In this document: piece after piece, positions 24,749 through 52,050 of the stretch | Layout of the letters: each line of letters begins with the position of its first letter | How positions within the stretch are numbered: position 1 is the stretch's first letter | Assembly (NCBI GenBank): GCA_000467715.1 | Contig: AJFK01000227.1 | Coordinates: 62,001 to 126,000, forward strand | From: Hysterium pulicare CBS 123377 | Lineage: Eukaryota; Ascomycota; Dothideomycetes; Hysteriales; Hysteriaceae | Direction: 5' to 3' | Length of the DNA stretch: 64,000 nucleotides | Notes under the pieces: generated by a model | Told to the model about the DNA's origin: nothing | Databases searched by the model: none | The model's input: the letters and a program-made list of their open reading frames with translations, nothing else | Program-made: the position numbers and the translations under genes

Positions 24749-26053
24749 TCAATCGTGCTGATCTCTCAGTGAACTCCAGTCCTGCGTCAACTTCCACAAA
24801 CACCTAGCGCCAGTATGCGTTCTATAAAACGGATTCCCAGCTTCCCGACAGTGAACACACTCAAGCGGTGCTATGCATCGAATCCGAGTATGGCCGGTGC
24901 TCTCGCAACGCGTGCAAAAGGTGCGAATACCGAACCGTGGCTCGATGCTGGATGATCGTACCTGTCCCCATACCTTAGCATTGAAGACAATGTCCTGAAT
25001 TGATGGTGGGGGATCTGTAGGAGAAGGATGCGTAGTGCTTACGATGCCAGCCCGCTGAGCCTGTGATGGAGGAGCAGAGAGCGTGTTGTCGGTGCCTGTT
25101 ATCGTGACCTCATCTGGGTCCATGTCTGTCCCTAGAAACGCAAAGCGTATTACTGAACGAACCTCGTCAGCTGTGAGTAGCTGCGGGCCACTGTCAGTTT
25201 CCATCTCCCAAGTAGTAATTTCACCATCGCCATCAGTTCTGCCGTCAGCATGAGGCGCGGGCAAAGACTTATACGCCATCAACAGCGCGCAAAACATACC
25301 ATACGCCGCCCGATTTCCCGTCCCCTTCACGTCCATCCCATCCATCCCCAACTTATCCGTCAAAGCCTCAAGGTCCATAATCTCGCCCTCCTCACAAAAC
25401 CCCATCTGCGATGCCAGGTACCAAGTATCAAGCACCTTGGCAACGTGTTCCGAACCTTCGACATCAAAACCGGCCGTAGTACTAAGCTCTTTCAGAACGC
25501 TAAATACTCCATGGCCTAAAATTACTTTAGGCATTATCGGCGAAGAAGGATCGTTGGGATCTGCTTTTCGATGGAGTAGGTCTGCAATCATGAGTATGGC
25601 TTCTTCTGTGCTCACCCACTCCGTAGCTCCAAAACAGAACGTCTCGCCTCCGTGCAAGGTTGTCCTCTCCGGGCACTGACAAGGCTCGCACTCCCGCTCA
25701 TCTCTATTCCGCAAATCGGCGAATTCGCGGATCCGGAAGTGCTGGTGTCGGGTCTCCGAGATCCAGTGCTGGGCTGAGGGACCGGGCGGTTTGGTCTGGA
25801 CATAGCCGTCGTCGAAGATGTCGCGGGTGTCGAGCGTGGAGACGGATATACCAGTGAGATGGTAGGGTGGGTGCTCGTAGGTTGTTGTGCTGATGGAGTA
25901 GATTATGGTGGGACGAGGTCGGGATAAGGGGGAAGATGGCGTGCCGTCCTTCGAATAGCCAAGAATTTGGAGGAGGGCGTCTTGGGAATTGAGGTTGGAG
26001 AGGTGGTTTCTGAAGGAGGCTGTTGTGGCGGACGGGCCTTTTGAGGGGGCCAT
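24749..26053 (-). CDS. Gfd2/YDR514C-like nuclease-fold protein with zinc knuckles, catalytic residues lost
   Basis: This is a single exon of 434 aa. Its fold-level pattern matches the DEDDh-type Gfd2/YDR514C-like domain and the paralogue at 52842-53870. Shared anchors are IIY...STLDTRDI, ILGHG, VLDTWYLASQ and GNRAAYGMF, followed by a C-x2-C-x4-H-x4-C zinc knuckle (FCTRCESTGHTRIRC) and a second Cys/His cluster ending CLWKL. Aligned without gaps to the paralogue, the Asp-x-Glu of motif I (LDVEW) is ISTTT. The motif II Asp (TNDIRAL) is Val, and the motif III His and the position of its final Asp are Lys and Arg. So no exonuclease metal site remains. A role in binding RNA or protein through the zinc knuckles is an inference. 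Confidence 0.75.
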   Translation of the reverse strand: MAPSKGPSATTASFRNHLSNLNSQDALLQILGYSKDGTPSSPLSRPRPTIIYSISTTTYEHPPYHLTGISVSTLDTRDIFDDGYVQTKPPGPSAQHWISETRHQHFRIREFADLRNRDERECEPCQCPERTTLHGGETFCFGATEWVSTEEAILMIADLLHRKADPNDPSSPIMPKVILGHGVFSVLKELSTTAGFDVEGSEHVAKVLDTWYLASQMGFCEEGEIMDLEALTDKLGMDGMDVKGTGNRAAYGMFCALLMAYKSLPAPHADGRTDGDGEITTWEMETDSGPQLLTADEVRSVIRFAFLGTDMDPDEVTITGTDNTLSAPPSQAQRAGIVSTTHPSPTDPPPSIQDIVFNAKVWGQVRSSSIEPRFGIRTFCTRCESTGHTRIRCIAPLECVHCREAGNPFYRTHTGARCLWKLTQDWSSLRDQHD

Positions 26054-26319
26054 TCTAGTTTGATGGTTTGAGTTGGTGGGGTTTGAAGATGGTAAGTTGT
26101 TATTCGAGTTGATGATATTGGCGTGGTTCGAAAGTGTTAATGAGAAAGGTGAGAGAGAATAGGAAGTGGATCAAGCAAGCGGAGATTATTTAAGGATCTG
26201 CTATTTCGTTCGTTGCGAATGCACAATGTTCTGAGATGAGTGGGAGTCATCAAGGGTCCTGCATTGTGATTGAATATCGATCATGGCGCAGAGCATACCA
26301 CAATAGCTGGAATCATTGG

Positions 26320-30556: not shown

Positions 30557-32032
30557 TTACTTTGCAATATGCGTTGCATCGACCGAATACTCTTCTTTCC
30601 TAAAAATCCCCCCATGGAGAGGCCCTTGGGCTTGAAGTTGATGAATTAATCCATCACTGCTCTCCCCTCTCCGGACACCACTTTGATATCCCATACCGTC
30701 TCCCCTCATTGCTAACTCTTCTTGAAAGTCCCCCTCACTATGATCAGTATCATTCTTTGAGGCCAAGGTACTCCCAAGCGTGTCCCCCAAGCCTCTCGGT
30801 TTTGGACGCATCCGATTCCGCCTCGAGCCGATGGTAGGTGGTAACTCTAAAGCCTCGCGGTCTTGATCGGACTTTCTCGGCCTCTTGTTGGAAAAGATTA
30901 TAGGGCCCAGTGTAGGTACGCAAGCAACCATGATTCCGGAGGCCATTTCGCCGGTTACTAGAATAGAGCTATCAAGAGCGCAGAAAGATAAGTCGGGGTT
31001 GGCGGGGCACTTCAGGGTTTGGATAATCCTTCCAAGGTTGATGGCCGCAGTGCTATATGATAACACGTAGTGTCAGCGACGTCAGCAAAAGGCCCTGGAA
31101 TCTGGATTCATGGCGGATGTGGGTGCCGAGCAAAATTGCGGGAGTATGAAGAGATGCAGAGCATGCGCGGGCATAAAAGGAGAAGCTGTAGACTCACGTC
31201 AAACCCAGAGCAAATGATGCAGTAACACCCCATTTCTTCTGCTGTGACATGTGTAGCTTCCAAATAATAGGTAAGGGCAAAAAGACAACCCAAAAGTCAA
31301 TGACCATATTGAAGGCCCCAGAGAAGATCTCGATGGCTGTGACATTACCGCATGTACCGTTCAGTGTCAAATCCCAGTTGAATGCAACTGGTCGACATAA
31401 CAGTAGAATAGCAAGCACGCAAGCTACCCAGTAGGAGGCTACGATAACTGCAGTTCCCATCGCGATCCAGTGAAAGATGGTTGTGCGAAATATTTCCATG
31501 TATAGAAACAATATAGCAAGACGGAAAGAGGCGACTCCCGTCGCCCAAAACCATTCTGAGACCCAGAAAGCCTGATATCAATGTGGACGTTAATCTCAAT
31601 ATAGATTTACGGTTGCATTGATGGGGTGGGGGACCGACTCTTGGGGTACAAGGTTAGAGATGGATTGACCTTCAATGTGATCATGATCCGATATTCAGAA
31701 AGATTTCCGACATGAACGCCATATCCTCCAATGAATATTCCTTTACAAGTTAGACGTGTGTTTTGACTATACTGTTGAAGTGATCAATATACCCGCTAGG
31801 ACGTCTCCAATATGGCCAATCAGGCACGCCTATATTGATTCTTAACAATCACCACTTCATTAGGTATCTGACCACTTACTAGACTTAGAAATACAAGGTA
31901 GTCATGCACCTTCAAAGCTCTTTGTCGGATTCGCATAGATAGGAACCGCAGAATTACAGCTGAGATGCTCAATGAGAGGCAAATGCTGACCAGGGCTAGA
32001 TAGGTTGCTGTCTTTTGGCTAACGCGTGCCAT
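30557..32032 (-). CDS. SAT4/rhodopsin-domain integral membrane protein
   Basis: Five exons (32032-31880, 31829-31793, 31740-31670, 31571-31198, 31052-30557) give 376 aa in consistent phase. The seven-helix fungal rhodopsin-like domain is visible: SICLSLSISAVILRFLSMR, HDYLVFLSLACLIGHIGDVLAG, GGYGVHVGN, AFWVSEWFWATGVASFRLAILFLYMEIFR, a loop with CGNVTAIEIFSGAFN, FWVVFLPLPIIWKLHM and GEMASGIMVACVPTLGP. A basic, Gly-rich cytoplasmic tail of about 120 residues follows. Members of this family (Pth11-related and SAT4 proteins) sit in the plasma membrane; some sense surfaces or ligands and some lie in secondary-metabolite clusters. The donor after exon 3 (GTCAAT) is atypical, and exons 2 and 3 are short, so those two junctions are the weakest. 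The gene lies at the edge of the UbiA gene group. Confidence 0.82.
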
Positions 32033-32768: not shown

Positions 32769-33732
32769 ATGTCGGATATATACGCTGAGAACATGGGGAG
32801 GGATGCTATCGAGGCCCAAAGGTTAGAGCTTACCTAGTCAATTCGAATAAGTCGTTGTCTAACTAATGATTGTTATAGATTAGACGAACAATTTGACCTG
32901 CTGACTGAGTGTGGCGTTCTCAGCCCAGCCGTGGCCCCCATTGTCATCTCGTCTAACGCTTATCAGGAACATTGGCTACATCCTACATCCATGTATTCGG
33001 TCTTCACTTCCAGAAAACCCACGCATTGCGGATATAGGGACTGGAACTGGAATCTTCCTTCGGCGCATACATGAGTCATTCCCATCGGCAACCTTGCACG
33101 GATACGATATCTCTTCCGCCCTGTTTCCTCCCCAAGAAGACATTCCATCAGGTATAAAGCTGGGAAACCTAGATGTCAAGCATCCTATCCCAAACGAACT
33201 TCACTTCAGTTATGATCTCGTTCATGTGCGTCTCCTTGCTGCCGCAGTGGAGCCCAATGAGTGGACAGAAGTAGTCCGCAACGTATCTTCATTGCTGAAA
33301 CCGGGAGCAAAAATTCAGTGGGAGGAGTGTGATTTTGCCAATGTTCACCACTTACGAGGTCAGCTGGACTCTAGTGTTGGTGCCGCACGCCATATGGGAA
33401 TGATGTTTCGAGACGGCCTGAAGCAACGATTTCAACATGGGTGGAAACCGTTGCAGGAAGATATGAGAAAAGCAGGTTTTGAAGCCGTGGAGTACGACAT
33501 TGTGAGCTCAGATAGGGTTCCTGAAACAAGGACAAGATTGACGGTGAACGGTATGAAGGCGATATTTCCTTGGGCGCGTATGATGGCTGTAAAAGGGGTT
33601 TCAGACTCGCTGGCGACTCGGGAACTTCAAGAATTGGAAAAACAGGTGTACGAGGACATTAAATCTGGCTGCTACGTTAGGTTTGACGTGTACGTGGTGT
33701 ATGCTACTCTACCGATATCACCATCTATGTAG
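32769..33732 (+). CDS. SAM-dependent methyltransferase, secondary-metabolism type
   Basis: Three exons (32769-32821, 32879-32908, 32967-33732) give 282 aa. Exon 2 is only 30 nt; it is fixed by phase and by the CTAAC branch site 13 nt before the TCAG that opens exon 3. The joined N-terminus MSDIYAENMGRDAIEAQRLDEQFDLLTENIGYILHP matches a large fungal class I methyltransferase family. Motif I is IADIGTGTGIFL, the acidic loop is LHGYDIS, and the post-motif region reads FSYDLVHVRLL, then LLKPGAKIQWEECD. It would transfer a methyl group from S-adenosylmethionine to O, N or C of a small molecule. Its 3' end faces that of a P450 gene across 175 bp. I place it in the UbiA gene group by context. Confidence 0.87.
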
Positions 33733-33907
33733 CCATATCATCCGAAGCCAAGTGATGTCCGTGGACGTTGGTTATTCATAAGCTATTGAAAACAAAGGAG
33801 CACCTTGAATACTTCGTGGAAGTTAAAGTGTGATTTGAAGGATAGGAAATACTTGAGAACGGACATGTCCATAGAACTAGACTCCAACCTAATGCTCGAC
33901 GAAAGTA

Positions 33908-35919
33908 CTATCTCCTTTGAAAGACAACTTTCAGCTCTCCAGGGTTGGAGGTTAGCTGATCCCTCATGTCTCTTTCTACAGCAACACCATTATCCGTTTC
34001 TTGGGCAAACTTCAGATAATATGTGCGAATGAGCGTTGCCGTCACCAGTCTAAGTTGGGCCATGGCAAGCTGCTTGCCTACACAGCTCGTGCGACCTGCA
34101 TGCATATAGATCAATAGTTTTCCTCGTGGGGGGATCTGCGGTAGTAGGGTGTGAATGCATATGAAGTGCGGATTAAAAGCAACTATTTCTCACTTACCTA
34201 CGCCAAATGGTGCAAAAGCACGTTTGTCCTTAATCAATTCAGGGCGGCTGTACCACCTTTCTGGTATGAACGCATGAGGGTCTAGGAAAGCAGATTCCAC
34301 TACGACGTAGTCAGCGTGAAATCACTCAGAGATTGGAATACTGTAGCAAAAGATATGAGACTAACTTCTTCCAATGGAATACCGTGGCGCACAGATTTTG
34401 ACGTGTCCAGGAATGAAAGTGCCGTCAATCATCAGGCCTTCAGGTGGAGTGACTCTCGAACTGAAAGTCAAGATCGAAGGAAGAAGTCGCATTGACTCGT
34501 TTATTGCCCCAGTAAGATGAGGAAGTGTCGATAGAGTCCTCAGATCCGAAGGGTCTACGCTCTCCAGCTCTTGATAGATCAGTTGTACGTGCTTCGGATG
34601 ACGAGCCAGAAAGTACAGAAGAATAATCAGACTGGGTGCCGTTGTGTCACTAATTGAAAGTTAGAATAGGTTGAAGACCGTGAGGACAGGTTAAAAGTTC
34701 ACCTCCCAGCAACCACCATGGTCGCAGTATCTCCGCTAAGTAGTCGCTTGCTAACGTCATCTGCTCCTCGACTTCGATAATCTTCGATGAACCATGAAGC
34801 AATATCTAGATGCTGCAGTGTCCGCTGCATAATACTTAGCAGCATAATGAACTAGGGCACCGTTTGTATGAAGCCTTACCTCCTTTCGGCGCTCCATACA
34901 CGTATCGCAGAATGCAAGCATTTGGAACCAGTCTTTTACTTTCCAAACACCGGGAATGAACGCAAAAGCAATTCGTGGAATCCAAATTGCAGGACTGAAT
35001 GGGCCAAGCAGGGTGATTGCTGATCGGAGGTACAGAGCTCCATCATGCCATTTCCCGTTCTTCATCATGCCAAAGTCTTCGCCAAATCCAAAATCACCCA
35101 TTGAATCGAAAGCGAACCAGTACATAAGCTCGTTGACAGCCAACTCTTTGGATTCGTAATTCGAGATAAAGCGTTCAAGAACTTGGACTTGCTGCACAAT
35201 TCTTTGGGTATACTGGTTAAGCGCTGTAACTCGAATCAGATGATGAACATTTGGTGATTTCAAACTAAGGGAGCTAAAATTTCGGGGCAACGTACCTGAT
35301 GTATTCAATGCATAGTCCCACAATTTCCTCCTCGTATCGTGCACGTTTCTATCTCTTGTGAAGATGGACGAAATCCTCGGATAAAGCAGATCGTACCAAT
35401 CTGATCTGATGTTTCGATTCTTCGGGCCGTCCATGGCTTCGTATGCTGCCGGGTGGAAAATGGTGATCTCGTTTGGGCCTTGATCTATCGTGTTAGAAAA
35501 ATCTGGACGAGACTCCGCATAGTACGCTCACCTGTTCGAACAAACGGGCCGTATTGCTGATGCCACAGTTCGAGAACATGGTGTCCCCGAGAATCCCGGC
35601 ATTTCCAGACATGCCATAACTTCGACAAAGCGGCCAAATGAGGACCAGGGAACTTTCTTAGACGATGGAAGTAGAAACGATACGTCGCAATGCTTAGAAA
35701 TAGGAACAACAAATAGCAGGCGATGAGGATGGTTGCAAGGAGCAAGCTTTCAAGTGGGCCACTAGCACCAGAAGCAAGATAGGCCGCACAAAGCAGGACG
35801 AATAGAATGATGTGCGTAGCAAGAATTGCTGGAGCCTGCAAATGCCATTCTCCCCGTCTGAATATGAGTTGATGAACTGCGACTCCTAGGGCGGACGCAA
35901 CAATCTCGTAGCTCAACAT
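33908..35919 (-). CDS. Cytochrome P450 monooxygenase
   Basis: Seven exons (35919-35532, 35478-35296, 35223-34880, 34824-34703, 34649-34366, 34299-34198, 34095-33908) sum to 536 aa. I start at ATG 35919. Two or three N-terminal hydrophobic helices (HIILFVLLCAAYLASG, LLLATILIACYLLFLFLS) anchor it in the ER, followed by the proline hinge KFPGPHLAALSKLW. The I-helix oxygen-binding motif is AGSDTT, the K-helix is ESMR (ExxR), PERW follows, and the heme loop is FAPFGVGRTSCVGKQLA with Cys as the thiolate ligand. All hallmarks of a working enzyme are present. It would hydroxylate or otherwise oxidise a lipophilic substrate. The multi-helix N-terminus is common in P450s of fungal secondary-metabolite clusters. 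Its start faces the alpha/beta hydrolase gene. Confidence 0.92.
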
Positions 35920-36324
35920 GTCGGAGGTCAAGTTGTGTTCTCAGCGTACGTGTAAGCGGAGGGAAGACAAGAAAAATACCGAGCCTTGCGCAGACCAGAA
36001 TCATTACGCTCCTTGTAATCGCACCATTCTTGCAGCCCTCGTCGCTGACGTTCATCGTTAGCCGGGCATTGTTACTCTACATTGGGGCGAGGATGCACGG
36101 CGAAGTTGTGCAAGTGGGGTCCGAGCCAGAGCAGGGACACATTAAGCGCCTGTCTCTTTTTTGATCCTTCCCCACAGGCATGTCCCTGCGTGATTCAAAC
36201 ATGCAGGGAATTGGTGTTCTGTCAATCAAACTGGCTCGGCGCTCATATATCAAAGGCAACCAAAGCAATAGACTCTCATCTGCCACTCCGCTCTCACCGA
36301 CCTTTTCTCTTGAACCTCCATAGA
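35920..36324. promoter_or_regulatory. Divergent promoter region, P450 and alpha/beta hydrolase
   Basis: This 405-bp stretch between divergent start codons probably co-regulates both genes. No TATA box or known binding motif is clear to me. Confidence 0.5.
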
Positions 36325-37239
36325 ATGCCTTCACTTACCGATCTCGCTGTGGTCATCTGCCATGGTAGCTATCACTCACCAGCACCATACATGCCATTGG
36401 TCGAGGCCTTCAAAGCGAGGCGAGTTGATGCCTATTGCCCCCAGCTTCCTACAGCAGACCTCACCAAGCTGAATGTGGGCGATGTCAACAACCCCGACTT
36501 TGACCGCGAGCCACCTTCGGGAGGGTATCCGCAGGGTATGGAAGATACCGAAGTTATACTCAGCGTGCTGAAGCGATTGATTGAAGAGCAAGGCAAGTCA
36601 GTCATTTTGATTGGCCACTCCGCCGGCGGATGGGTTGCCACCGAAGCTGCAAGACCAGAATTGCAGGCAAAGACGCGAAAGGCAAAGAACCTGTCTGGGG
36701 GTGTGATCGGAATACTGTACATGGGGGCATTCATCATTCCCGTTGGGGAATCGGTGCACAGCTTTTTTCAACCGAAAGATGGTACGTTCGTGACGCCGCC
36801 ATTTATGGAGTTCCACGTAAGTATACCGAATCGAGACTTGTCCCCTTGACTTGAGCTATGATGGCTGATAGCATGCCGTTACGAATAGAAACACGGTGCA
36901 GCTGGTCTAGGGACTATGGTTCAAGCAGAGCATTTCCTCTTCAATGATCTTGATCCTGAAGCTGGAAAAAAATGGGCACATACTCTGACTGCTTCGCCTG
37001 TTCTAACAGCGAAGTTGACAAACGATGCGTACTCAGCTCTGCCATGTGCTTACTTGGTTTTGGAAGGAGACCAAACCCTCCCCAAGGAGTATCAAGAGGG
37101 TATGGCAGCGGCACAGGGACAAGCTACCGGCAGGTCTTTCATTATGTATCGTTGCCCGGCTGGTCATTCTCCTCATTTGAGCTGGACCACAGGTGTGATT
37201 GACACGACTGAAGACTTTTTGAGGAACATCGAAGCTTAG
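36325..37239 (+). CDS. Alpha/beta hydrolase (serine hydrolase)
   Basis: Two exons (36325-36816, 36889-37239) give 280 aa. The start codon (AGAATG) is followed by MPSLTDLAVVICHGSYHSP, where HGSYHSP is the oxyanion-hole strand. The nucleophile elbow is GHSAGGWV; the acid is probably in LVLEGDQTLP and the His in AGHSPHLSW. The protein is short and lacks a signal peptide or lid insertion, like cytosolic esterase or lactonase-type enzymes of the AB_hydrolase_6 group common in fungal pathways. An open frame extends upstream of the ATG but starts outside any pattern. The 72-nt intron (GTAAGT...ATAG) joins FMEFH to KHGAAG in phase 0. It is convergent with the UbiA gene and divergent from the P450 gene, so probably part of that group. 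Confidence 0.87.
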
Positions 37240-37454
37240 GTGCACGGTAATCCTGACACGAGAATCTTATATAGTTGGTCTTTCACTATTGCTAAGTTCA
37301 GAGATGGCAATGCAAGGTTATTTATAGGAGGAAATTGAACCAAACTTGTGATTCTTATACATGTTATTCCTGGACCTCTGAATGTCAAGCCTGGCCTCCG
37401 TCATCCTCAAGCATATAGTTATACATTTCAAACAGAGCAACTAATTTCTACAAT

Positions 37455-38417
37455 TCAGTACGTAGAGTCTTGTTTAAAGAGCGGTAGAACATATATTACA
37501 GACATCCATAGGTTCCATACCAGAAACGTTTTCTTATCATCTGCAACCTGTCGAAATTTCAGGGTCCGAATTGCAACTATTAAGGCCAAGAAAGAGCTCA
37601 GTCCCAATATAATAGCTCCTGTGTTCCAGAATGCCGGACACAGTATACCCCAGAAAACCATGAAAGCGGCAATGATCCAACGAGCTGTCAAATCTCCCAC
37701 AACTAGTGGTACAGTTCTTCGACCCCGTTTGGCATCACCCTCCTGATCGTACATATCCTGTGCATGCACGGTAGAAAGAATGATACCCGCGATGATGCCG
37801 AGCCATTGAATGAGAAGTGGCGTTCGAAGGAAGGAAATAGGCCTTCCAAAATTCACTTCCAAAGCACCGGACGTAAAGCAGAGATATCCGAAAGCATTGA
37901 TCAAGTTACGAATGAATGGATTAACGTCGCCGCCTCCGAAATTGTTGTACCATGTGCCGAGGAAGAGGAGGCTCGCCGACTGCCTGAATGCTCCCACCAC
38001 TGTTGCACTAAATGCTTGTGCCGCAAGATAGAGAAGAACCATGAGAGATATTGCTTCAGCTGGCGACATTCGCCGACTTGGGAGGGTCCTCCATGGCTTG
38101 TTGATAGTGTCCTCGGCGATGGCTGAGTCACTCCTTTGATTATTTATTGCAAAGGGAAACAAATTGAGCCAGACCCAGCACAGAGCGTGAGGAAAGCGTC
38201 GAAGAGCAGCGATTTCATTGACGGGCGCAGTAGCTGTCTCGAGACCGTACTTTTTAGCTGCCAGGGTATTTGCGATGCCAAAGATGGTACTAGGAATAAC
38301 AATTGTTTTGAGATCGCTATACGTGAATAGCCAGAGAGAATACAGTTGATACGATACTCTTTCGAACCATTTTGTAACACTGCGAATCGTCTCGGGCGAG
38401 TTGTGGAGGAACAACAT
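37455..38417 (-). CDS. UbiA-family prenyltransferase or UbiA-type terpene cyclase
   Basis: This is a single exon of 320 aa from ATG 38417; the frame is open further upstream but without an in-frame ATG, and an extra 5' exon is possible. Seven or more hydrophobic helices are seen. The first Asp-rich motif reads NNQRSDSAIAEDTINKPWRTL, and the second DMYDQEGDAKRGRRTVPLV, the two Mg-diphosphate sites of the UbiA fold. Canonical aromatic prenyltransferases have NDxxDxxxD at the first site; here it is NNQRSDSAIAED. That divergent form with NKPWR is known to me from fungal UbiA proteins linked to meroterpenoid or terpenoid pathways. One of these, Fma-TC of the fumagillin cluster, is a membrane sesquiterpene cyclase. 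Whether this enzyme prenylates an acceptor or cyclises farnesyl diphosphate cannot be told from sequence. Confidence 0.88.
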   Translation of the reverse strand: MLFLHNSPETIRSVTKWFERVSYQLYSLWLFTYSDLKTIVIPSTIFGIANTLAAKKYGLETATAPVNEIAALRRFPHALCWVWLNLFPFAINNQRSDSAIAEDTINKPWRTLPSRRMSPAEAISLMVLLYLAAQAFSATVVGAFRQSASLLFLGTWYNNFGGGDVNPFIRNLINAFGYLCFTSGALEVNFGRPISFLRTPLLIQWLGIIAGIILSTVHAQDMYDQEGDAKRGRRTVPLVVGDLTARWIIAAFMVFWGILCPAFWNTGAIILGLSSFLALIVAIRTLKFRQVADDKKTFLVWNLWMSVIYVLPLFKQDSTY

Positions 38418-39844
38418 GCTACTGAACACTAGATGTTTGGTAGTGAGTATAGCTCGATCTTCAGAAATTTGCCGGTCTGTACGGTACTTAGATGGGCATT
38501 CCTTGACATGGCAATTATACCTTCGCTTACATGACTCAGGTTCCAAGATTATTTGATACTAAAACCATGCAATCCTTTAACGTAAAACCGACCACAAGGC
38601 GTTTACCTGCATGCTAGAAAAGTGGGAAAGAGATGCGAGCTGAGTTGGAAGCTAGTCACGCAGTTATTCGGTGCCCTATAATATCTTCATCCTGGATAAC
38701 TAACGGCTCTGAAAAGGGTAGGCCTGTCTCCATATGATCTCCCTGCTACCAAGTATCAAGACCCCATGTCTCAAAGCAGCATTTCTACCTCTCTGGTTCT
38801 ACGAAGGCAACCACGCGACTCGGATGTGTGCCATTATCCATATTAGGCTGCTTTAATGGAAGCCCAGTCGGTGACATAATCTCGAGGACGTTAGGGTGTT
38901 CGATAGTCAAGGGGCCTGACGAGCTGCTTAGAACTAGCTGAGGACTCGACACACATTTTTCACCAAAACCAACCAAAACCCTAGCTGCTACTGCCAACTT
39001 GGGGGCCAGACAGAAATTAAAATAACATCATACGACCCAACGAACGCTTACACTTGATTTATGGTCTTGGTGTTCTGATCCATGTAAATGCATACCAGGA
39101 ACTTTAAATACGGATCATGTGTTGGAAGTCACATGGGTCGAAGCTTTAGACCAAGCAAGCCGCCCGTTCGGAACTTCAGATCTGAGGGAGCGGAGTCGGG
39201 GTACTACGGGCCTGCATTGCAGAATTCTTTTAAGAAGGCTGGTGGTCCAATGAAGCCCGAGTTAGCATGGGCATTTGATACACGCAGACGCCTTTATTCC
39301 GAGACATGCATCTGGATATTGTTTATTGCGGATACTAAGTCGTGCCGCAATATGTCCTTATTGCCGAGATAACGGGATTCCAACTTTCCCGACGGTAGAA
39401 CTTCAGCTGAATCAAAAGAGCGGTTGATGTGGAACCAACAGAGGTAATTGTGTTATCCTGAGATTGCGGCGTAGCACGGCAGAATAGCTGCAACACCTTT
39501 GATCTGATGATGACCGTTTCTCATAACACGGCAGTTCAATTCGGTTCAAACGAGCAAGTCTAAGCGCTGATGCACTGTGCTAAATACAAGGCTGCATACC
39601 TGGCTTGCCTTTCGAGGACGAAAATTTGTTATTAAAATAGTCTCCTTATTATGTTCTCCATGCATCAATGGGACGCGAATCCTTGTCTGAATTCCCGGTT
39701 TGGTTGCCGTCAGTAGCATCATAGCGATGGCGAGGCGTAGTGATATTACTTTGATAGCATCGATATGAGTGAATAGTCAAATAGAAGTTCCTTTGGCATG
39801 ATATCCGTAGGCGAAGTGTTTTCCCCGTGATTTTCTCAGTCATC
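38418..39844. promoter_or_regulatory. Long divergent intergenic region, UbiA and FAD oxidase
   Basis: This stretch of 1.4 kb between divergent start codons contains no convincing ORF; the longest, at 39088-39372 (+), has no pattern. It probably holds both promoters. A transcription-factor or small gene is not evident. Confidence 0.45.
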
Positions 39845-41608
39845 ATGAGCAAAATGAAACGCCGCGCTAGTCCTATATTTCTACATTTCTTTATCCTCTT
39901 CACTGCAAAAGCAATTACGTCAGTTCCACAAGGCGTAGAATACCCTTATTCCTGTCGTTGTTTCCCCGGAGATGCTTGCTGGCCAGCGAAAGATGTGTGG
40001 ACGACTTTCAATCAGTCACTAGGCGGCAAGTTGATAGAGACAGTACCAATTGCAGCATCTTGCCATTATAGTGCATTTGGACCGTATAGCCCACAGAAAT
40101 GTCAAGCACTGCAAGACGTGTGGTTTTACCCCGAGACACATTTGGCGAGCTCCTCCTCCATCATGGCCCCCTTCTTCACAAATAACAGTTGCAATCCTTT
40201 CCTAAATGCAACTGTATTGGGCACTGCAACTCCTTGCACCATTTCTAATTACGTCGAATATACTGTCAACGCCACGAGTGCTGAGGACTATCAAAAAACC
40301 GTAAACTTCACTCGTGATCACAATATCCGCTTAGTTGTTCGCAACACTGGCCATGACTACAATGGAAAGTCGACGGGAGCTGGAAGTCTCGCACTTTGGA
40401 CGCAGCATCTCAAGAATATGGAACTGAAAGTGTACAACGATACCCGATATGCTGGAAAGGCCTTCAAGTTTGGAGCAGGAGTCCTTGTCAAAGAGGTATA
40501 TGAATTCGCAGCATCGCATGGTTTGACGGTCGTTGGCGCGAATGAGGCAACTGTAGGGCTTACCGGAGGATATACACAAGGGGGTGGACATGGCCCATTA
40601 GCGTCCAAGTTCGGCTTAGGGGCAGACCAAGTTCTGGAGTGGGAACTTGTAATGAGTACAGGAGAACTGGTCAGGGCGCATCCGGCATCTCCACAGTATG
40701 AAGATCTGTATTGGGCATTGTGCGGAGGTGGAGGCGGAACCTACGGGATGGTTGTCTCAGTAACGTTGAAGGCGCACCCTCACATGATCATGACAGTCGC
40801 CAATATGACCTTTGCAAGTTTGGGCTCGCCATCAAACATGACCATGGAACCCTACTACGATATCATCAGCACCTTCATTCAAAATATCCCGGCGTTGAAC
40901 GACGCCGGGGGAGTTGCGATTTGGTTTGTAACCGCTCAGTCATTTGTACTGTCTTCGGCGTTCGGACCAGGACTGCACAAAGCCGATCTCGACAAGCTCC
41001 TTGAACCAACTATAAGTAAACTACAGAGGGTTACAAGCGCGCTTCAGTACACATATTTCTCACAAGAGTATCCGACATTTCTGGAAGGGTTCCAACGTAT
41101 GCCCCGAGTCAACGTCTCGAACCTTAGCATTGGTGGACGCTTAATACCGCGATCGCTTGTCGAAAATAACATCACTGCACTGATGGTGGCAATCCAGAAT
41201 ATCATACTTCAAGGAGCTGTTTTCTCGGGTGTATCTTTCAATGTATCGAATTCAAGCCCAGGCACTGTTGCAGCGAATCCCTACTGGCGTGAAGCGGTTT
41301 TCGATGCCGTTTTAGGGTTGCCTTTTGACTACGCAAACTGGACCAACAACGTCCAACAACAAGACAAGCTGACCACGGAACTACTCCCACAGCTCGAGAG
41401 GTTGACTCCCAGCGGGGGTGTTTACCTAAATGAAGCAGATTTTCAGCAGCCTGATTGGAAAGACACCTTCTACGGGAAGAATTACAATCGGCTCAGCGAG
41501 ATTAAGGCAAAATACGACGCCGACGATCTATTTTATGCACTTGGAGCGGTTGGAAGTGATCGTTGGTCTCAGAGAAGCGACGGTAGACTTTGTAGAACGA
41601 CTGGATGA
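39845..41608 (+). CDS. Secreted FAD-linked oxidase, BBE-like
   Basis: This intronless gene encodes 587 aa. The start is ATG 39845; the longer frame begins with GTG. A basic start and hydrophobic stretch (SPIFLHFFILFTAKAITS) form a signal peptide. Next comes the fungal hallmark CRCFPGDACWPAKDVW, the FAD_binding_4 domain, and a C-terminal BBE motif (YYGKNY-like: FYGKNYNRLSEIKAKYD). The His of VVRNTGHDYNGKS is the usual covalent FAD attachment. The second attachment Cys of bicovalent enzymes would fall in GANEATVGLTGG, where Glu stands instead, so FAD is probably held by His alone. There are many N-glycosylation sites. Relatives oxidise alcohols or close rings in alkaloid, oligosaccharide and polyketide pathways. 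It sits next to the UbiA gene. Confidence 0.92.
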   Translation: MSKMKRRASPIFLHFFILFTAKAITSVPQGVEYPYSCRCFPGDACWPAKDVWTTFNQSLGGKLIETVPIAASCHYSAFGPYSPQKCQALQDVWFYPETHLASSSSIMAPFFTNNSCNPFLNATVLGTATPCTISNYVEYTVNATSAEDYQKTVNFTRDHNIRLVVRNTGHDYNGKSTGAGSLALWTQHLKNMELKVYNDTRYAGKAFKFGAGVLVKEVYEFAASHGLTVVGANEATVGLTGGYTQGGGHGPLASKFGLGADQVLEWELVMSTGELVRAHPASPQYEDLYWALCGGGGGTYGMVVSVTLKAHPHMIMTVANMTFASLGSPSNMTMEPYYDIISTFIQNIPALNDAGGVAIWFVTAQSFVLSSAFGPGLHKADLDKLLEPTISKLQRVTSALQYTYFSQEYPTFLEGFQRMPRVNVSNLSIGGRLIPRSLVENNITALMVAIQNIILQGAVFSGVSFNVSNSSPGTVAANPYWREAVFDAVLGLPFDYANWTNNVQQQDKLTTELLPQLERLTPSGGVYLNEADFQQPDWKDTFYGKNYNRLSEIKAKYDADDLFYALGAVGSDRWSQRSDGRLCRTTG

Positions 41609-42028: not shown

Positions 42029-44803
42029 CTAGAAACTAAACAACCCACTTCTCTTCTTCCCAAGCGGATACACCAGCAACGCGGCAAGGAATAACCCCAC
42101 CGTAATCCCGATAGCAACCTGAATAACACTAAACCCCACATTCAACGCCACCCGATTCACATTACTAGCCGCATCCGTCCCATTCGAGATTGTCGTGACT
42201 CCCGTCTGGTTTCTAGTAATCTGATCCGCGGACGTGATGCCCGAGACCAGAGACCCGGAGACTGAAAGGCCCGAGGGAACCTGTACGAAGATGGCGGGAA
42301 GCATAGCCGCGGCCGCGAGCCCGTACCCGATTTTCCGCACTGAGGGGATGAACTCGTCGGGGGTGGAGGCTCCGCTTCGTGGCATGTAGTCTTTGTTGTG
42401 ATGGCGTTGCTGATGGGGCCAAGTGGATCGACCGTGGTGCGAGCGTAGCCAGCGCTTACGGAATCGGATCAAGCGGGGTCGGAGACGATCTTCCCAGATA
42501 TCGAGACACCAATTCTCGACGTAGCGGCCGAAGCGGGCGTGGATATTTGCTGTGACGCCGATTGCGAGCGCGCCGAGGGTGTTACTGACTTGGGCGTTGC
42601 CTTTGAAGTATGTAGAGCTGTGGTAGTTTACGACGTAGCCGATGAGGGAGATGATGAGCATGGCGGGTGCTTGCTTCCATTTTGCTTGATTGATGATTAT
42701 GAGACAGAGGGTGAAGGCTAGGACGAAGAAGTAGTACCAGGATGAAGACATTGGGGCAGTGCAGCTGGTGGAGGAGGTGGCGTTCTTATCCAGCATACCG
42801 AAGAGGACGGTGCCGATTGTGATGCCGAAGCCGAGAAAGAGGGAGTAGATGATGGCGTAGACCATGCGGACGGACCCTGCGACAATGTGACGAGATTGTA
42901 GTTCGAGACTGGCAGACAGCACGGTAAAGCCCGGCAGGATGAGTGCTATGCTAGACTGGGCCATGGCGCTGAAGCAGAAGAGTTCTGTACCGTTGTGCCT
43001 GATGGAACCAAGTCCTCGTGCGATGAAGGATGTGATGACTGCCGCACTGATCTCGAAGACATTGGAGATCATTTCGTTTTGAGGGGCGACAATAAGCTGT
43101 AGCCATCCCAGGATACAACCCAGGAGAAAGCAGAATGGTAGATCGATGGGTCGAGCTTGGAAAGCGAAAGGCCCAACGGTTGCAGATGCTAAGCCATACA
43201 CCGGAACGCGGAGCCAATCATTGAACTTGGGTTTGCGAGCGATGATGGCGTCCAGGCGCGGAGTGGCTTCATCAACAGCAACACGGTCATGCACAACATC
43301 CTTGTAGATTTCGTGAGTATCGCGGAGTTTACCGAGATCGACTCCCTGGGATGTACGGACCAGTTTGACTTCGGTCGTATGAACAGAGGAATCGTCGAAC
43401 GAGATGATCATGCAGCCAGGAATGTAGAGAAATTGTGCTTCAATCTCTAGTACTCGAGCAGACATGCTCATGTACTCTTCCAGCCGGTGGGTAGGAGCTC
43501 CGAATTTCATGAGGGCTTTGCAAAGTCTTCGAAGGTACGTTTGTCGCGCCAGCGTCCCGGCTAAATGTATTTTGATTTTGATCTCCTCTCGGCTAGGTTT
43601 ACTCATCTTGCTGAAAGCTGAAGCGATTGAAGTTCCGCTCTTCGATCGTTTACCCATGCCAGGACGAGACTTTTTCGACATGTCTGCCATCTCGTGGGCA
43701 AAATCCTTCTGGCCTGGAGCAGCCAACATGGCTGACGAGTCCAAGAGCTTCGATATCGATGTAGATGAGTGATTAGCACTTCTACTATACCAGTGTCTAG
43801 CTCCATGACGTGGGTTTAAGGGTGTGGTAGTTCCAGAAGTGGGAGGAGACGGTTGCGGAGTCGTGGCAGCTGTGGAGGCGCCGCTCAAGCTACCTGATGT
43901 CTCCCAGCTAGAGCCACGCGGATGCATTGATGGTCTAGATTGTTTGGGGTCAAGTTGCTTGAGTGCATCAAATGAAGGAGCGCGGGGTCCAGACGCAGCT
44001 TTAAGCAGTGTCCCTAAGACACCAGTTCTGAACCTCTTCGGACGAGGTACGTACTCATCGTCTACCTCGTTGAGAGGAGTGACTTGGCCAGATTGAAGTG
44101 CCGCCATCTCAGAATGATATAGGTCTTCCGACCTGAATCTCGGAGCATTGCGCACGGTATGTTGTCGTATTAATTGGTCCGCTTGAGCGATGAATTCTTT
44201 CCTTGTAGTGGGCTCGGGAGCCTCCTCATCTTCAGTCTCCCCATCGAATGTGACAATGTTACTCAAAGGAATACGATCAGGCCTGCCAGCAGGACGATTA
44301 GGTGGAGTACTAGATAGTAATTTCTCGCTCGAATTCCGACGCGACCCCGGCGCCGAGTAGCTTCCCACAGCTCTTGCAAGTTTTGTGGCTCGCTCCTGGG
44401 CGAGAATGCCGGACAGTCGCTTTGTAGAGTCATCCTCTTCGTCTTCATCGCCGAGAAGGAATTGGGTAGGAGGAGTTCGGGATGTTCTTCGAATTGCAGG
44501 CCTCGGCTTGGGAATGTAGGGTTTACCAAAAGCTTTGTGGATCTCTTCAGACAGTTCCGCATGTGAGACATCGGAGCGTTGGCCAGGCGCGGGAGAATTA
44601 TTAGAGCCGGAACCACTGTCCAGCGGGTACTCGATGAGTTCTATGTTTGATAATGATTCGTCGGGAGTGATGATAGCGGGGGGAGCAGAGTCCGAAGTAA
44701 AGCCAACTCGTTTGCGGCCTGACTGATGAGGCGGCATCGAACCGTCAGGTGAATGATGGGAATGAGATGCTTGGTGATGCCAGGAAGTATCAGAGGACTC
44801 CAT
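42029..44803 (-). CDS. Prm10/ThrE-like (DUF1212) membrane transporter
   Basis: This is a single coding exon of 924 aa. I start at ATG 44803 (GCCATGGAG, a strong context). Upstream the frame has only a GTG, and splice-like signals there suggest a 5' UTR intron. Residues 1-430 are hydrophilic, Ser/Pro-rich and probably regulatory. The DUF1212/ThrE domain begins at LAGTLARQTYLRRLCKALMKFGAPTHRLEEYM, followed by IPGCMIISFDD and RLDAIIARKPKFNDW. About ten membrane helices follow, including FAFQARPIDLPFCFLLGCILG, LPGFTVLSASLELQSR and SLIGYVVNYHSS; a last pair lies near the C-terminus. Bacterial relatives export threonine and serine, and yeast Prm10 is pheromone-regulated. It is probably a vacuolar or plasma-membrane carrier and probably not part of the biosynthetic group. 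Confidence 0.9.
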   Translation of the reverse strand: MESSDTSWHHQASHSHHSPDGSMPPHQSGRKRVGFTSDSAPPAIITPDESLSNIELIEYPLDSGSGSNNSPAPGQRSDVSHAELSEEIHKAFGKPYIPKPRPAIRRTSRTPPTQFLLGDEDEEDDSTKRLSGILAQERATKLARAVGSYSAPGSRRNSSEKLLSSTPPNRPAGRPDRIPLSNIVTFDGETEDEEAPEPTTRKEFIAQADQLIRQHTVRNAPRFRSEDLYHSEMAALQSGQVTPLNEVDDEYVPRPKRFRTGVLGTLLKAASGPRAPSFDALKQLDPKQSRPSMHPRGSSWETSGSLSGASTAATTPQPSPPTSGTTTPLNPRHGARHWYSRSANHSSTSISKLLDSSAMLAAPGQKDFAHEMADMSKKSRPGMGKRSKSGTSIASAFSKMSKPSREEIKIKIHLAGTLARQTYLRRLCKALMKFGAPTHRLEEYMSMSARVLEIEAQFLYIPGCMIISFDDSSVHTTEVKLVRTSQGVDLGKLRDTHEIYKDVVHDRVAVDEATPRLDAIIARKPKFNDWLRVPVYGLASATVGPFAFQARPIDLPFCFLLGCILGWLQLIVAPQNEMISNVFEISAAVITSFIARGLGSIRHNGTELFCFSAMAQSSIALILPGFTVLSASLELQSRHIVAGSVRMVYAIIYSLFLGFGITIGTVLFGMLDKNATSSTSCTAPMSSSWYYFFVLAFTLCLIIINQAKWKQAPAMLIISLIGYVVNYHSSTYFKGNAQVSNTLGALAIGVTANIHARFGRYVENWCLDIWEDRLRPRLIRFRKRWLRSHHGRSTWPHQQRHHNKDYMPRSGASTPDEFIPSVRKIGYGLAAAAMLPAIFVQVPSGLSVSGSLVSGITSADQITRNQTGVTTISNGTDAASNVNRVALNVGFSVIQVAIGITVGLFLAALLVYPLGKKRSGLFSF

Positions 44804-46770
44804 GGCTGAAGTATTAGGGATCCGCAGATAGCGGCGCCTGTCGCTCTGAATTTGGAAGGGACGTGTTGTCACTAGCCCAATAATAGCAACTGACGAAGCT
44901 TACGTCTGATCGAGCCTGGAGGCGCGGCTTGGGAGCGATAGCTGTGAAGTTTGCTAGCAGAGCAAAGACGCTCGGATTCGACGGATGGCACCAATGGCTC
45001 CGGCAAGATGACGATGGAGTCAATTCTCGCAGCACAGCAGTTGGAGACGGAGAGATACGCAACCGAAAACGGAATTGCAAGAGGCAAAATCACGACAGGT
45101 CGTAGGTTGAAGATGCGGAATTATGACGATTTCGGAGCGGCGGGAGAGTAGATCCAAACCTGGACGCTAAGAAAGGCGTGGCGTCACCGCATTCATTCTT
45201 CAGCAAAGACAAAGGAGGCTTAGCGAGATGCGAGAACAGAATCCATCCCTAAAGAGAGGCACCGAAATACAAAGACCCACACACGGAGGAACGTCGGGCG
45301 AGACTCTTTTGAATGGAAACTCAAAACTCAGCAATCTTGGGCAGCGGCAGCAGTTGCCAGTGATGGATACTCTTAGCAGGTTGCTGTGTGGCATATCAAC
45401 TTATCGCAAACTCAACAAAACTCTCAACCATTGTTGTTGCAACGCTCTTCGTATCAGAGAGCTCCACTCGAGATGGCGTAATGTTCTCTCTCAGCCGCAA
45501 TGGTCCTTGTCGGAGCCGCCATGGTCGGTTTTGATTTTCATAATGGGAACGCCGAAGATAGCAAAGTGGGTATAAAATGGGCCCTCTTACTGGAATATGT
45601 CCAATAACGCGAGCGATAGGGGGATGGTGTTGCATGTACACGTTGATAAGACGGTGGTTTTTTGGGCATGTCGCGCTTCGCGTCGGTCGAAAACATCTAA
45701 CGGTGAGTCAAGAGGCCAATAGGTACCAGTGGTTGCAAAACAGAGGCTGCCCTCGAAACCAGAGCAACGGGTTAGACTTTAGGCAGATGTCGATTTATAT
45801 GAAGAGTGATGAGGAATTGTGATGAATATTGGAGCCCAGGAAGGCGTGGAGGAAAAGAAAGGTGTCGACGTTTCAGCGGCTTAAAATCGGCTTTGCACCG
45901 TAACAAGCCACCCAAAACTTTTCTCGCCTCCGCCACCAGCCCTATGTAGACACCCTATCGCCATCGCTATCACTCATCAATCTCTTTCACATGCTCAGGT
46001 ACCGCCATCCAATCGGAGATTTTACATCCTTGCGCTTCATCAACCACTACTATCACAACATCACGATGTATTAATAGCATCAGATAGATTGGTTGATGCC
46101 CTTGAGTGGAACGCCTGCCCCAACTTGGTGAAGACGACAAGCTTTCACAGCGTTTACGAGATCAACACCAGGCATCTTGACAGCGCGTATACACCTCATC
46201 TCAACGCATTCTCCTCAGAGCCCTTCGATTTCTTTCATCAAACCCAGGTAGAAATCACGTCCAGACCACGTGACGTCAATCCTATTACCATGATGCCCTG
46301 TACTGAAACATCTAAACCGGATATCTTGGCTCAGGCAGCCTAGCTGTTGAAGCTGTTGGAAGTTCTATCAGGGTGTTCTTAGGTTGCTCAAGGAACACTG
46401 TGGTACCACATGATGAGTAGTCAGCCTTGTTCCATTCCATACACTCGCGTGCTCACTCCCTAGTACCATTGATGGATGGATAGAAATGTACCGCTGTCGT
46501 CCCACCTCCCACGTACGATACCAGCGGTAGGACAAGCGTGGCCTCGGGCTGCAATGGTGCAGGTCCGTAGGTAGCTAGACAGATAGGTAGGTGGTAGCAT
46601 CATGTGGGGCCTTCGTCTCCCCGCACTTGGAGCAGTAGACCCTGCATCCACACCATCTCCTCCAACATGTGGGGTAATATATTTCGACTCTCTTATAATT
46701 CTCATACAAGCAAAAATTGTGTACATTCACCAATCTTCACTCAAAGAACAAGCCGAATCCTACACCAGCC
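44804..46770. promoter_or_regulatory. Intergenic region of 2 kb, divergent promoters
   Basis: The Prm10-like and FAD-monooxygenase genes both start at the borders of this region. The Prm10-like 5' leader probably extends to about 45.1 kb. ORFs inside are short and without pattern. No repeat or RNA gene is recognised. Confidence 0.45.
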
Positions 46771-48209
46771 ATGCCTAAAATCAATAAGGTATGCTGAAAT
46801 TTACCCTTCGAGATTCACACGCTAATAAACAAAAAGGTCGTAATCGTCGGTGCCGGGCCGTCAGGTCTGCTATTGGGCATAATGCTCGCCCGACATGGCA
46901 TCACTGTTCAGATTCTTGATATGGGCTTGGAACTCGACAAGAACCCGCGAGCAGCCCATTATGCTCCCTCGGCCGTCTATGACTTCACGCGAGCAGGGAT
47001 AATCGATGATGTCAATGCTGCTGGTTTTCATCCCGGAGGTGTCTGCTGGCGAGAGATTGATGGGAAGTTCTTGGCAGGTATGGGACGGGCATGGACCGGC
47101 GGATTCGATACTGCGGACGACGTGCCCAAGGGCAAATACCCTATGGTTGTGCTGCCGTTGGATAGGTTGGGAAAGGTCTTCCAGAAGCATTTCGAGAGCT
47201 ACAAGACCACGGAGATTCTGTGGAATCACAAAGTCGTCGCCATCGATCAGGATGAGAAGCAGGCAAGAGTGATTGTGGAAACACCAGAGGGCCAGAAGAC
47301 ATTTTCAGGAGACTATGTAATCGGCGCAGATGGCGCGAACAGTCAGGTTCGTCGCTCACTATTCGGGGATTTAAACTATCCTGGAGAGACATTACCGGAG
47401 CAGATTATTGCTACAAATGTAAGTCCCAGACCCTCCCCTTGAGGCTTACTCTGTGGAAGACTAATTGTCGTTGTAAGGTCTACCTCGACTTCACAAAATT
47501 CGGCTACTGGGATTCAAACTTCATCGTTCACCCGACAGACTGGTACATGGCTGCTAGAATTACTACTGACGGCATGTGGAGAGTTACGTATGGCGATATA
47601 CCCGGCTTGACACGAGAAGAATATCTCGAACGTCAACCCATGCGATATGAGAAAATCCTCCCCGGGCACCCGAAGCCAGAGGAGTACAAGCTCGTCGGCG
47701 CCAGCCCCTACAAACTTCAACAACGATGTGCACCCAGCTTCCGCGTCGGTCGATTTATTCTTGTTGCTGATGCAGCCCATCTGTGCAATCCTTTCGGTGG
47801 TCTAGGTCTCACAGGAGGTTTCGCAGATGTCGGGTCTCTCTACGACTGCCTTATCGGTATTCACGAGGACAAGGCAGACGACAGCATATTAGACAAGTAC
47901 AGCGAGGTTCGAATCAAGCTTTGGAAGGAAATGATCGACCCCCAATCCAGGGCGAATTTCCATCGCTTATGGGATGAGAAATGCATTTCCGACCGAGAGG
48001 CATTCTTCAAGATTTGCGAGAAGGCGGCGAATGATCCAGAATTTGCATCACAAATGAACGATGTGAGCATTGGTATCCCCTTCTGAACTGAGATGTACAC
48101 AAACTAACCACGTCTTTCTTAGGGAATTCACGCTATCCGACACGACTTCACGCAATACTATAAGGATGCTCCTGCAAAATCGAACGGACAACTGAACGCG
48201 GCTCAATAG
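46771..48209 (+). CDS. FAD-dependent aromatic-type monooxygenase
   Basis: Four exons (46771-46788, 46837-47418, 47478-48062, 48123-48209) give 423 aa. The first exon is only MPKINK; the join to exon 2 gives VVIVGAGPSGLLLG, the Rossmann GxGxxG that binds FAD. Further motifs are the DG motif YVIGADGANSQVRRSLFG and the GD-like motif FILVADAAHLCNPFGGLGLTGGFADV, which complete the class A flavin monooxygenase fold (salicylate/phenol hydroxylase type). These enzymes use NAD(P)H and oxygen to hydroxylate or epoxidise rings. It lacks a C-terminal membrane helix, so it is probably soluble. It is followed on the same strand by a P450 gene; together they could be tailoring genes of the nearby UbiA group or an independent pair. 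Confidence 0.9.
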
Positions 48210-50545: not shown

Positions 50546-52050
50546 ACGGTATAAGCTGAATTGAGCATTTGAGCTACGTATTACATGTGCCAGTGTGGTA
50601 AACATGCACATCTAAGAGCTCAATCACTGCTTGCCAGAACTTTTGCAAATGTCTCCTATGGCCAACATCCCAGGTGTCTTTGGCTAACTTTATCTGACTA
50701 CTATAAAAGATCCTAATACCTTAAGCGTCGTATCGCAAGTGTGGGCAGCTTTACAATCCACGCATCTATCTCCGATAGAGCCATTGCATTCTACCCGGGC
50801 GCGGCAATTCTGGCGGAGATGTCGAGAGCTATTACAGCGAATACAATACACTTGACGACCCCAATGTTGGGTTGGGGGATTCTCTTTGGCATACGCCTTG
50901 AAGTTATCAAAAACTTCCTGAGCGGTTCGAGTGGGCCTGCCGTGAAGATTTGAATATTCATAGGAGTCGGATGCTCTGAATTGTCGATGAAGTTGGAACG
51001 GGTATTAGAAGGTCCACGCGAGATATCGGATCCTTGAACGGTGATTTCATTGTGGAATCAGAAGAAATATGAATGAAACCAGATCTCAAAGGGTGATATT
51101 GGTGTGGCCAATATGAGATGCATTATCTATCACTTGGATCGTGACTTTTAGGACATGCGTGGAAGCCTACCAGTCCAGCTCGCTTGAAGAGAACAGCGAA
51201 AACAACAAGTTGCGATAGAAAAGGTTGCTTGGGGATTGAACAAGAGGACCTTCAAACCACCTTGAAGCGTTGAACATTTTCAGGTTACGTTCGTCTCGTT
51301 TATATTGGCACTGGAGAATCGTTTGCAGCCGGTTTGCGGCAGGTTTGCGGCCTTTGGATCGATCATCGGCGGAAGTAAATGGTTAGCCAAAGTTAGGTTT
51401 TCCGTCAAGAGTAGTCCACTTCGACATCGCGAGAGGAGAAGGCCTCGGTAAGGAAGATTATATTTTGAAGTTGACCACAATGGTTATCGCTCATGCACTC
51501 GCGACGACCTGCAAAGACGCTAGCATCGGTTGATCAACCAATGAAATCTTCTTGAAAAGTGGCTCGAAGAGGTTTAGCTTCTTGTGAGGGCAAAGGGACA
51601 GAGAACTGAGAGATAGTGTAGATTGATCTTATGTACGAAAGGTTGGTGTAGGGAGCAAGCTGGAGGTTGAGGTTCGGCTGGAGCGGTACTTCGTAATTCT
51701 CCGGATTTAAGCTGAAAGTTGACTACCCGAATAACCACTCAACAATACGAAAACAAACTAAAAAATTAGAGATTCTAGCTCGCAAGGAGAAGCTGAAGAT
51801 TGAAGAGTAAGATTTCTTCTTTTTAGAAGTGTTAGTGAGGAAATTTAACGTGCTTTATTTGTTCGTAGCATTCGCTTACTTCCGGAGATTACTTTCGTCC
51901 CCACCTTCTATAAGTAGCCTAGTCTCTAATTATCTCATATTAGTAATAGCGGTGCCTAATACTAGAAAAAGCATTCCTTCACCTACTGCTCTTTTTCTTT
52001 GGTTATATATAATGCTTTCATTTCCAACCGATAAATTCAATACCTCATTC
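50546..52050. other. Intergenic region of 1.5 kb
   Basis: ORFs are short and without pattern (for example 50741-50953 +). A perfect 12-bp palindrome GGTTGATCAACC lies near 51528. The part next to the tRNA gene (51840-52050) is AT-rich. No gene is recognised. Confidence 0.45.

Follow-up and report, generated by a model that had tools for sequence, protein, structure and literature searches.

The window analysed here is a stretch of 64,000 bp from Hysterium pulicare CBS 123377 (bases 62001-126000 of contig C180, GenBank AJFK01000227.1, in an assembly of 37.2 Mb and 596 contigs). It holds five adjacent genes for a methyltransferase, a cytochrome P450, an alpha/beta hydrolase, a UbiA-superfamily membrane protein and a flavin adenine dinucleotide (FAD) oxidase, which an earlier note on this DNA had proposed as a biosynthetic gene cluster with the UbiA protein as a terpene cyclase at its core. 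Spliced models and a Pfam assignment for each gene bore out their presence, order, strands and spacers of 175, 405 and 215 bp; the remaining spacer, between the UbiA and oxidase genes, is 1427 bp and far longer than the other three. The whole set occupies 8.8 kb, all five genes are biosynthetic in type, and all reading frames are intact with no internal stops. Splice sites were picked by hand in all gene models, and within the window Pfam was applied to the five genes, to parts of a neighbouring SAT4-type gene and to seven other reading frames, the remainder being judged by eye.

The methyltransferase gene (32769..33732, plus strand; exons 32769-32821, 32879-32908 and 32967-33732, two introns) encodes an S-adenosylmethionine-dependent enzyme of 282 amino acids, whose unspliced frame matches Methyltransf_12 (2e-10) and whose nearest other match in the genome reaches only 31%. 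It is followed on the minus strand by the P450 gene (33908..35919; 538 amino acids, seven exons, six introns), with the heme motif FGVGRTSCVG and a p450 match of 1.1e-49, and on the plus strand by the hydrolase gene (36325..37239; 280 amino acids, one intron), with a GHSAGG motif, an Abhydrolase_6 match of 6e-22 and its closest paralogue at C90:70456 (63%). The UbiA gene (37455..38417, minus strand; 320 amino acids, no intron) matches Pfam UbiA at 4.3e-19 with 69.2 bits against a curated cut-off of 34.2, which places its product in the UbiA superfamily. Last comes a gene for a vanillyl alcohol oxidase/berberine bridge enzyme (VAO/BBE)-type FAD oxidase (39845..41608, plus strand; 587 amino acids, no intron), probably secreted, which probably starts at 39845 and matches FAD_binding_4 (3.9e-19) and BBE (5e-13).

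The earlier note had also described the cluster as lacking a polyketide synthase (PKS), a non-ribosomal peptide synthetase and a class I terpene synthase. In a six-frame search of the whole genome, contig C180 accounted for none of the 62 ketoacyl synthase matches, none of the 33 condensation domain matches and none of the five matches to Terpene_syn_C_2 (PF19086), the one class I terpene synthase family searched for, so that the description holds within this scope.

Subfamily and motifs of the UbiA protein

The genome yields eleven UbiA matches, which correspond to nine genes. Two of these are COX10 and COQ2, identified by sequence, and four others encode COQ2-like or related proteins with motifs ND..D or SD..D. 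In a tree of the nine proteins, the window protein groups with one protein each from contigs C43 and C95, and the other six stand apart (100/100). Identity is 35-45% inside this three-protein subfamily and 10-20% to the other six, with 15-16% between the window protein and COQ2 and COX10; a direct genome search with the window protein (E up to 10) returned only itself and the C43 and C95 proteins. A grouping with COQ2 or COX10 had been named in the earlier note as one of the results that would refute its proposal, and the nine-protein tree gave the opposite picture. Judged by sequence, the window protein is neither COQ2 nor COX10.

Among solved structures nothing scored better than E 0.37, the UbiA-family match being chlorophyll synthase at 0.76; NCBIfam matches all fell far below their curated cut-offs, and a predicted structure of the protein alone was unusable (mean predicted local distance difference test score 42.5). 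No relatives were found in viral contigs of public collections. Public genome contigs gave no match with the whole UbiA alignment, and the motif region retrieved two Chitinophaga proteins that are 27-28% identical. Their genes (L053 and L054, both 4770-5726) encode a motif I of NQLHSIAED, which lacks the first Asp, and by eye the L053 gene is flanked by two histidine kinase-like frames.

Both motifs of the window protein were confirmed as described, namely NNQRSDSAIAED as motif I and QDMYDQEGD as motif II. The first motif reads NQRSDSAIAED in the window protein, NQRLPDSALED in the C43 protein and NQRLPDAVAED in the C95 protein, so position 6 is Asp in both paralogues and Ser (S98) in the window. 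The canonical first Asp of motif I is thus missing, and the two acidic Mg-diphosphate motifs are otherwise present. In an alignment of five proteins (window, C43, C95 and the two from Chitinophaga), E102, D103, N106, K107 and P108 and the three motif II Asp residues (D221, D224 and D228) are invariant, and the first Asp is variable.

Departures from NDxxDxxxD have been published. PMC9835599 gives NXXX(G/A)XXXD for the first and QDXXDXXXD for the second motif of Tps1A, Tps2A, Fma-TC and EriG, and Pb_BisA, termed a gamma-bisabolene synthase, has NQRHPGSVAED and QDMYDQPGD (PMC11745945). The window motif II fits QDXXDXXXD exactly; its motif I has the length of that of Pb_BisA but Ser where the formula has Gly or Ala, the published formula being two residues shorter than the Pb_BisA string when both are taken literally. 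The variant motif I has published as well as bacterial parallels, which helps the cyclase reading.

In Tps1A, Ala mutants of D100, Y155, D215, D218 and D222 each lost product (PMC9835599). Their apparent counterparts in the window protein are D103, Y157, D221, D224 and D228; the spacing within motif II is the same as in Tps1A, and the Tyr lies 54 residues past the Asp in the window protein versus 55 in Tps1A. The window protein therewith appears to keep residues known to matter for cyclisation. Their presence is no proof of cyclisation, since a prenyltransferase belonging to this subfamily may rely on them as well.

A partial repeat on contig C43 and the FAD oxidase

Three of the five families of the window recur together on contig C43, where a 12.4 kb segment (29.9-42.3 kb) encodes one P450, one UbiA protein and two FAD oxidases. 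The two C43 oxidases are the top two other genome matches of the window oxidase (661 and 526 bits; 56 and 48%), the third match, on contig C336, scoring 385 bits, and the C43 P450 is the top other match of the window P450 among the 80 of 174 candidates that were scored. In the reverse direction, the window oxidase ranks first among non-self places when one C43 oxidase is the query, as does the window P450 with the N-terminal part of the C43 P450. We grouped the matches into loci ourselves, with the same 80 of 174 P450 candidates scored; the C43 copies then take the first two places among 20 oxidase loci, and the first place among 68 P450 loci, outside the window set. Assuming that rank and place are independent, such ranks would arise by chance with a probability of about 8e-5. 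Of the three proteins that make up the UbiA subfamily in this 37 Mb genome, two stand beside the same P450 and oxidase families. This partial repeat supports the idea that the genes belong together; it is the strongest new evidence for a cluster and, within this one genome, takes the place of the synteny comparison suggested in the earlier note.

The closest solved relative of the window oxidase is MtVAO615 (PDB 6F72; E 1.1e-109), a flavoprotein whose substrate is unknown (PMC6017366). The two share the His anchor for FAD (RNTGH, H170 in the window oxidase); Cys222 of MtVAO615, which makes the second FAD bond, aligns with Glu234, whereas both C43 oxidases retain the Cys. Bicovalent VAO/BBE enzymes are recognised by a His in R/KxxGH together with a Cys in CxxVG, and the window oxidase has the His only; its FAD is predicted to be mono-covalently bound. 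The loss of this Cys has a precedent in AspoA, a BBE-like protein with Gly in its place, which is active and catalyses a double-bond isomerisation in which FAD is apparently not used (PMC8752850).

A hydrophobic stretch at the N-terminus of the window oxidase (residues 9-27) resembles a signal peptide, which suggests that the enzyme is secreted. In other pathways, secreted flavoenzymes carry out late steps of natural-product synthesis in the extracellular space or the cell wall (PMC11375781), and a late and extracellular action of the window oxidase is the natural guess. In C336:26392-32455, about 3.5 kb separate the third-ranked oxidase paralogue from a ketoacyl synthase domain, a hint that more than one kind of natural-product cluster draws on this oxidase family.

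Proposed pathway and alternative explanations

On balance we lean towards a small terpenoid gene cluster built on a UbiA-type cyclase. The genes with their families and motifs, the subfamily placement and the partial repeat on C43 are observed; the substrate, the cyclisation, the order of steps and the export we infer as follows. The UbiA protein would sit in an internal membrane and bind a prenyl diphosphate, most likely farnesyl diphosphate (FPP) and possibly geranylgeranyl diphosphate (GGPP), through Mg2+ coordinated by D103 of motif I and by D221, D224 and D228 of motif II. Acting as a putative terpene cyclase, it would ionise the substrate and cyclise it to a hydrocarbon or alcohol, with no prenyl transfer to an aromatic acceptor. 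The P450 would next oxidise the skeleton, perhaps as far as a carboxylic acid. The methyltransferase would act on oxygen, for example to give a methyl ester, comparable to Tps1H/Tps1D, the P450/methyltransferase pair of the Antrodia tps1 cluster (PMC9835599), and the hydrolase would open, cleave or trim an ester or lactone. These steps would take place inside the cell, and the FAD enzyme would make the final change outside.

Several results weigh against this proposal. On the side of the enzyme, motifs alone may not tell cyclases from prenyltransferases; the Tps1A residues were mapped by motif and spacing only, and Y157 is kept in the three fungal subfamily proteins but not in the Chitinophaga proteins. 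On the side of the cluster, no regulator, transporter or prenyl diphosphate synthase was seen by eye in the five-gene block. The three divergent promoters share no word of 8, 9 or 10 bases, where random window segments share on average 1.5, 0.28 and 0.075. The chance estimate for the ranks of the C43 copies is rough and was computed only once the result was known. The C43 UbiA protein is nearer to the C95 protein (45%) than to that of the window (35%), so that the UbiA pair breaks the pattern of the P450 and oxidase pairs. A class I terpene synthase match (PF19086; C43:65335-65595) lies 23 kb past the C43 group of UbiA, P450 and oxidase genes and is likewise counted against a cluster. The 40 kb of C43 that were examined hold no homologue of the methyltransferase or the hydrolase. 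Homologues of the other window genes were likewise absent from the 10 kb read around the hydrolase paralogue on C90 and from the 30 kb read around the C95 UbiA gene, whose neighbours are unrelated and by eye include several housekeeping genes. The five-gene cluster of the earlier note is partly upheld: its UbiA, P450 and oxidase families recur on C43, and its methyltransferase and hydrolase have no counterpart there.

These last observations would be expected if the five genes were neighbours without a common pathway, the likeness to C43 reflecting an old duplication of a P450/oxidase pair with the UbiA gene as a bystander. The UbiA genes of the window and C43 lack the reciprocal pattern, the methyltransferase and hydrolase have no counterparts in the part of C43 examined, and none of the window partners turned up in the 30 kb read around the C95 gene. 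We nevertheless consider a chance neighbourhood quite improbable, as two of the genome's three subfamily UbiA genes adjoin the same P450 and oxidase families, and as five biosynthetic genes are crowded into so short a segment.

The alternative to which we give most weight, although it is unlikely in comparison with a cyclase cluster, is a split meroterpenoid pathway in which the UbiA protein, as a prenyltransferase of the AscA or StbC kind, transfers a farnesyl or geranylgeranyl group to an acceptor whose synthesis is encoded at another place in the genome. AscA, which uses FPP, is described as a UbiA prenyltransferase (PMC9835599), StbC has the corresponding role in a different cluster, and in Hericium a prenyltransferase has been proposed to be encoded away from the PKS. 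What makes this a serious rival is that the window also encodes, 5-8 kb to the right, a FAD monooxygenase (FAD_binding_3, 46798-48086) and a second P450 (48759-50219). Enzymes of the former type introduce epoxides into prenyl chains in meroterpenoid pathways, and the second P450 is 47-55% identical, over two main matches, to a P450 on contig C196 whose gene has a COQ2-like UbiA gene about 7 kb away. Against it stand the lack of ketoacyl synthase and condensation matches on C180 and the fact that no Pyr4-type cyclase was seen by eye, a profile search for it not having been made. Moreover, the phylogeny in PMC9835599 sets UbiA-type cyclases apart from prenyltransferases including AscA, and within the genome a wide distance (10-20% identity) separates the window subfamily from the COQ2-like proteins.

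A third explanation, by which the UbiA protein of the window has diverged from its paralogues and lost or changed its catalysis, in a cluster that is decaying or has acquired new chemistry, seems very improbable. It would account for S98 where both UbiA paralogues have Asp, and for Glu in the window oxidase where both C43 oxidases and MtVAO615 have Cys. Yet none of the five frames is broken, and for each residue essential in Tps1A an apparent counterpart exists; the Chitinophaga relatives and Pb_BisA also lack that Asp, and AspoA is active without the same Cys.

Within the favoured cyclase cluster, a more specific version can be formulated, to which we attach a low probability. The genome would hold two diverged copies of a module consisting of a UbiA-type cyclase, a P450 and a secreted VAO-type flavoenzyme, with the terpenoid finished extracellularly. 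The window copy would have an acid-shifted motif I (D97 and S98 versus D98 of the paralogues) and a flavoenzyme lacking the Cys-FAD bond, which, like AspoA, may carry out an isomerisation or rearrangement with no net oxidation of the substrate.

The monooxygenase and second P450 may form a biosynthetic pair of their own; between them and the five genes lies a gene for a ThrE-domain protein (42029-44899). Contig C196 holds what appears, by reading frames, to be a second kind of UbiA cluster (C196:22236-40919; L019, L020), with a FAD monooxygenase, a transcription factor, a P450, a Baeyer-Villiger-like monooxygenase, a short-chain dehydrogenase, a COQ2-like UbiA protein, an O-methyltransferase and a multicopper oxidase; Pfam was applied there to the UbiA frame only, and C196 gave no ketoacyl synthase match.

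To the left of the methyltransferase gene lies a gene for a fungal rhodopsin/SAT4-type membrane protein (30557..32032, minus strand; Fung_rhodopsin 2e-29 for one of its exons), which the earlier note had set at the edge of the cluster. Tried as a cluster marker, it proved uninformative because the family is large: a genome search gave 60 matches, among which the better C43 copy comes no higher than 7th with the query itself included, and the closest relative (59%) lies on the same contig outside the window (C180:46377). Its membership in the cluster is not supported. Together with genes that contain introns and with the overall gene content, it marks the DNA as that of a filamentous fungus. 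Elsewhere in the window, the stretches 24749-26170, 50693-51004 and 52842-53996 have in common, by eye, a zinc-knuckle-like C-terminus (C.RC...H..RC), and the first and last of these, which are the longer two, also share an LDTRD region, indicating a small local gene family.

Relation to known UbiA-type systems

The observation holds up, and its interpretation is, in outline, likely. The part that deserves specialist attention is the duplicated set of UbiA protein, P450 and flavoenzyme with altered catalytic residues. Two related loci that differ at catalytic positions would permit a direct test of the role of motif I in cyclases versus prenyltransferases, and also of why a terpenoid pathway would finish with a secreted flavoenzyme. 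If the locus turns out to be ordinary after all, it adds one further fungal terpenoid locus. UbiA-type terpene cyclases are easily missed, as SMURF ignored UbiA-like genes in a survey of Parastagonospora (PMC4205913).

The locus is a probable UbiA-type terpenoid cluster, and such clusters are already known as a kind. Its novelty is lower than the earlier note had implied, because clusters in which a UbiA-type cyclase has P450, methyltransferase or FAD oxidase partners are already in print. For the combination of a UbiA protein, a P450 and a secreted VAO-type enzyme, no description was found in the accessible portions of the literature searched, which left subscription journals mostly outside.

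One familiar comparison is with fumagillin synthesis, which also needs a PKS. Its cyclase Fma-TC, compared here by description, is likewise a UbiA-family membrane terpene cyclase with the same class of motifs (PMC9835599, PMC4205913). The tps1 and tps2 clusters of Antrodia cinnamomea also combine a UbiA-type cyclase with a P450 and a methyltransferase (Tps1A, Tps1H and Tps1D; PMC9835599). They are basidiomycete clusters of at least 10 genes with several P450s and reductases, whereas the VAO-type oxidase and the alpha/beta hydrolase are features of the window locus. The erinacine cluster with EriG joins a UbiA-type cyclase to P450s and a FAD-dependent oxidase, but its pathway leads to diterpenes and includes a dedicated GGPP synthase as well as a glycosyltransferase and a transporter (PMC12843870). 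A resemblance in motifs is seen to Pb_BisA of Penicillium brasilianum (PMC11745945), which, like the window protein, has an NQR-x6-ED motif I without Asp at position 6 and a motif II of the form QDMYDQ-x-GD. The two differ in motif I by Gly versus Ser at position 6 and Pro versus Asp at position 5, and in motif II by a single letter.

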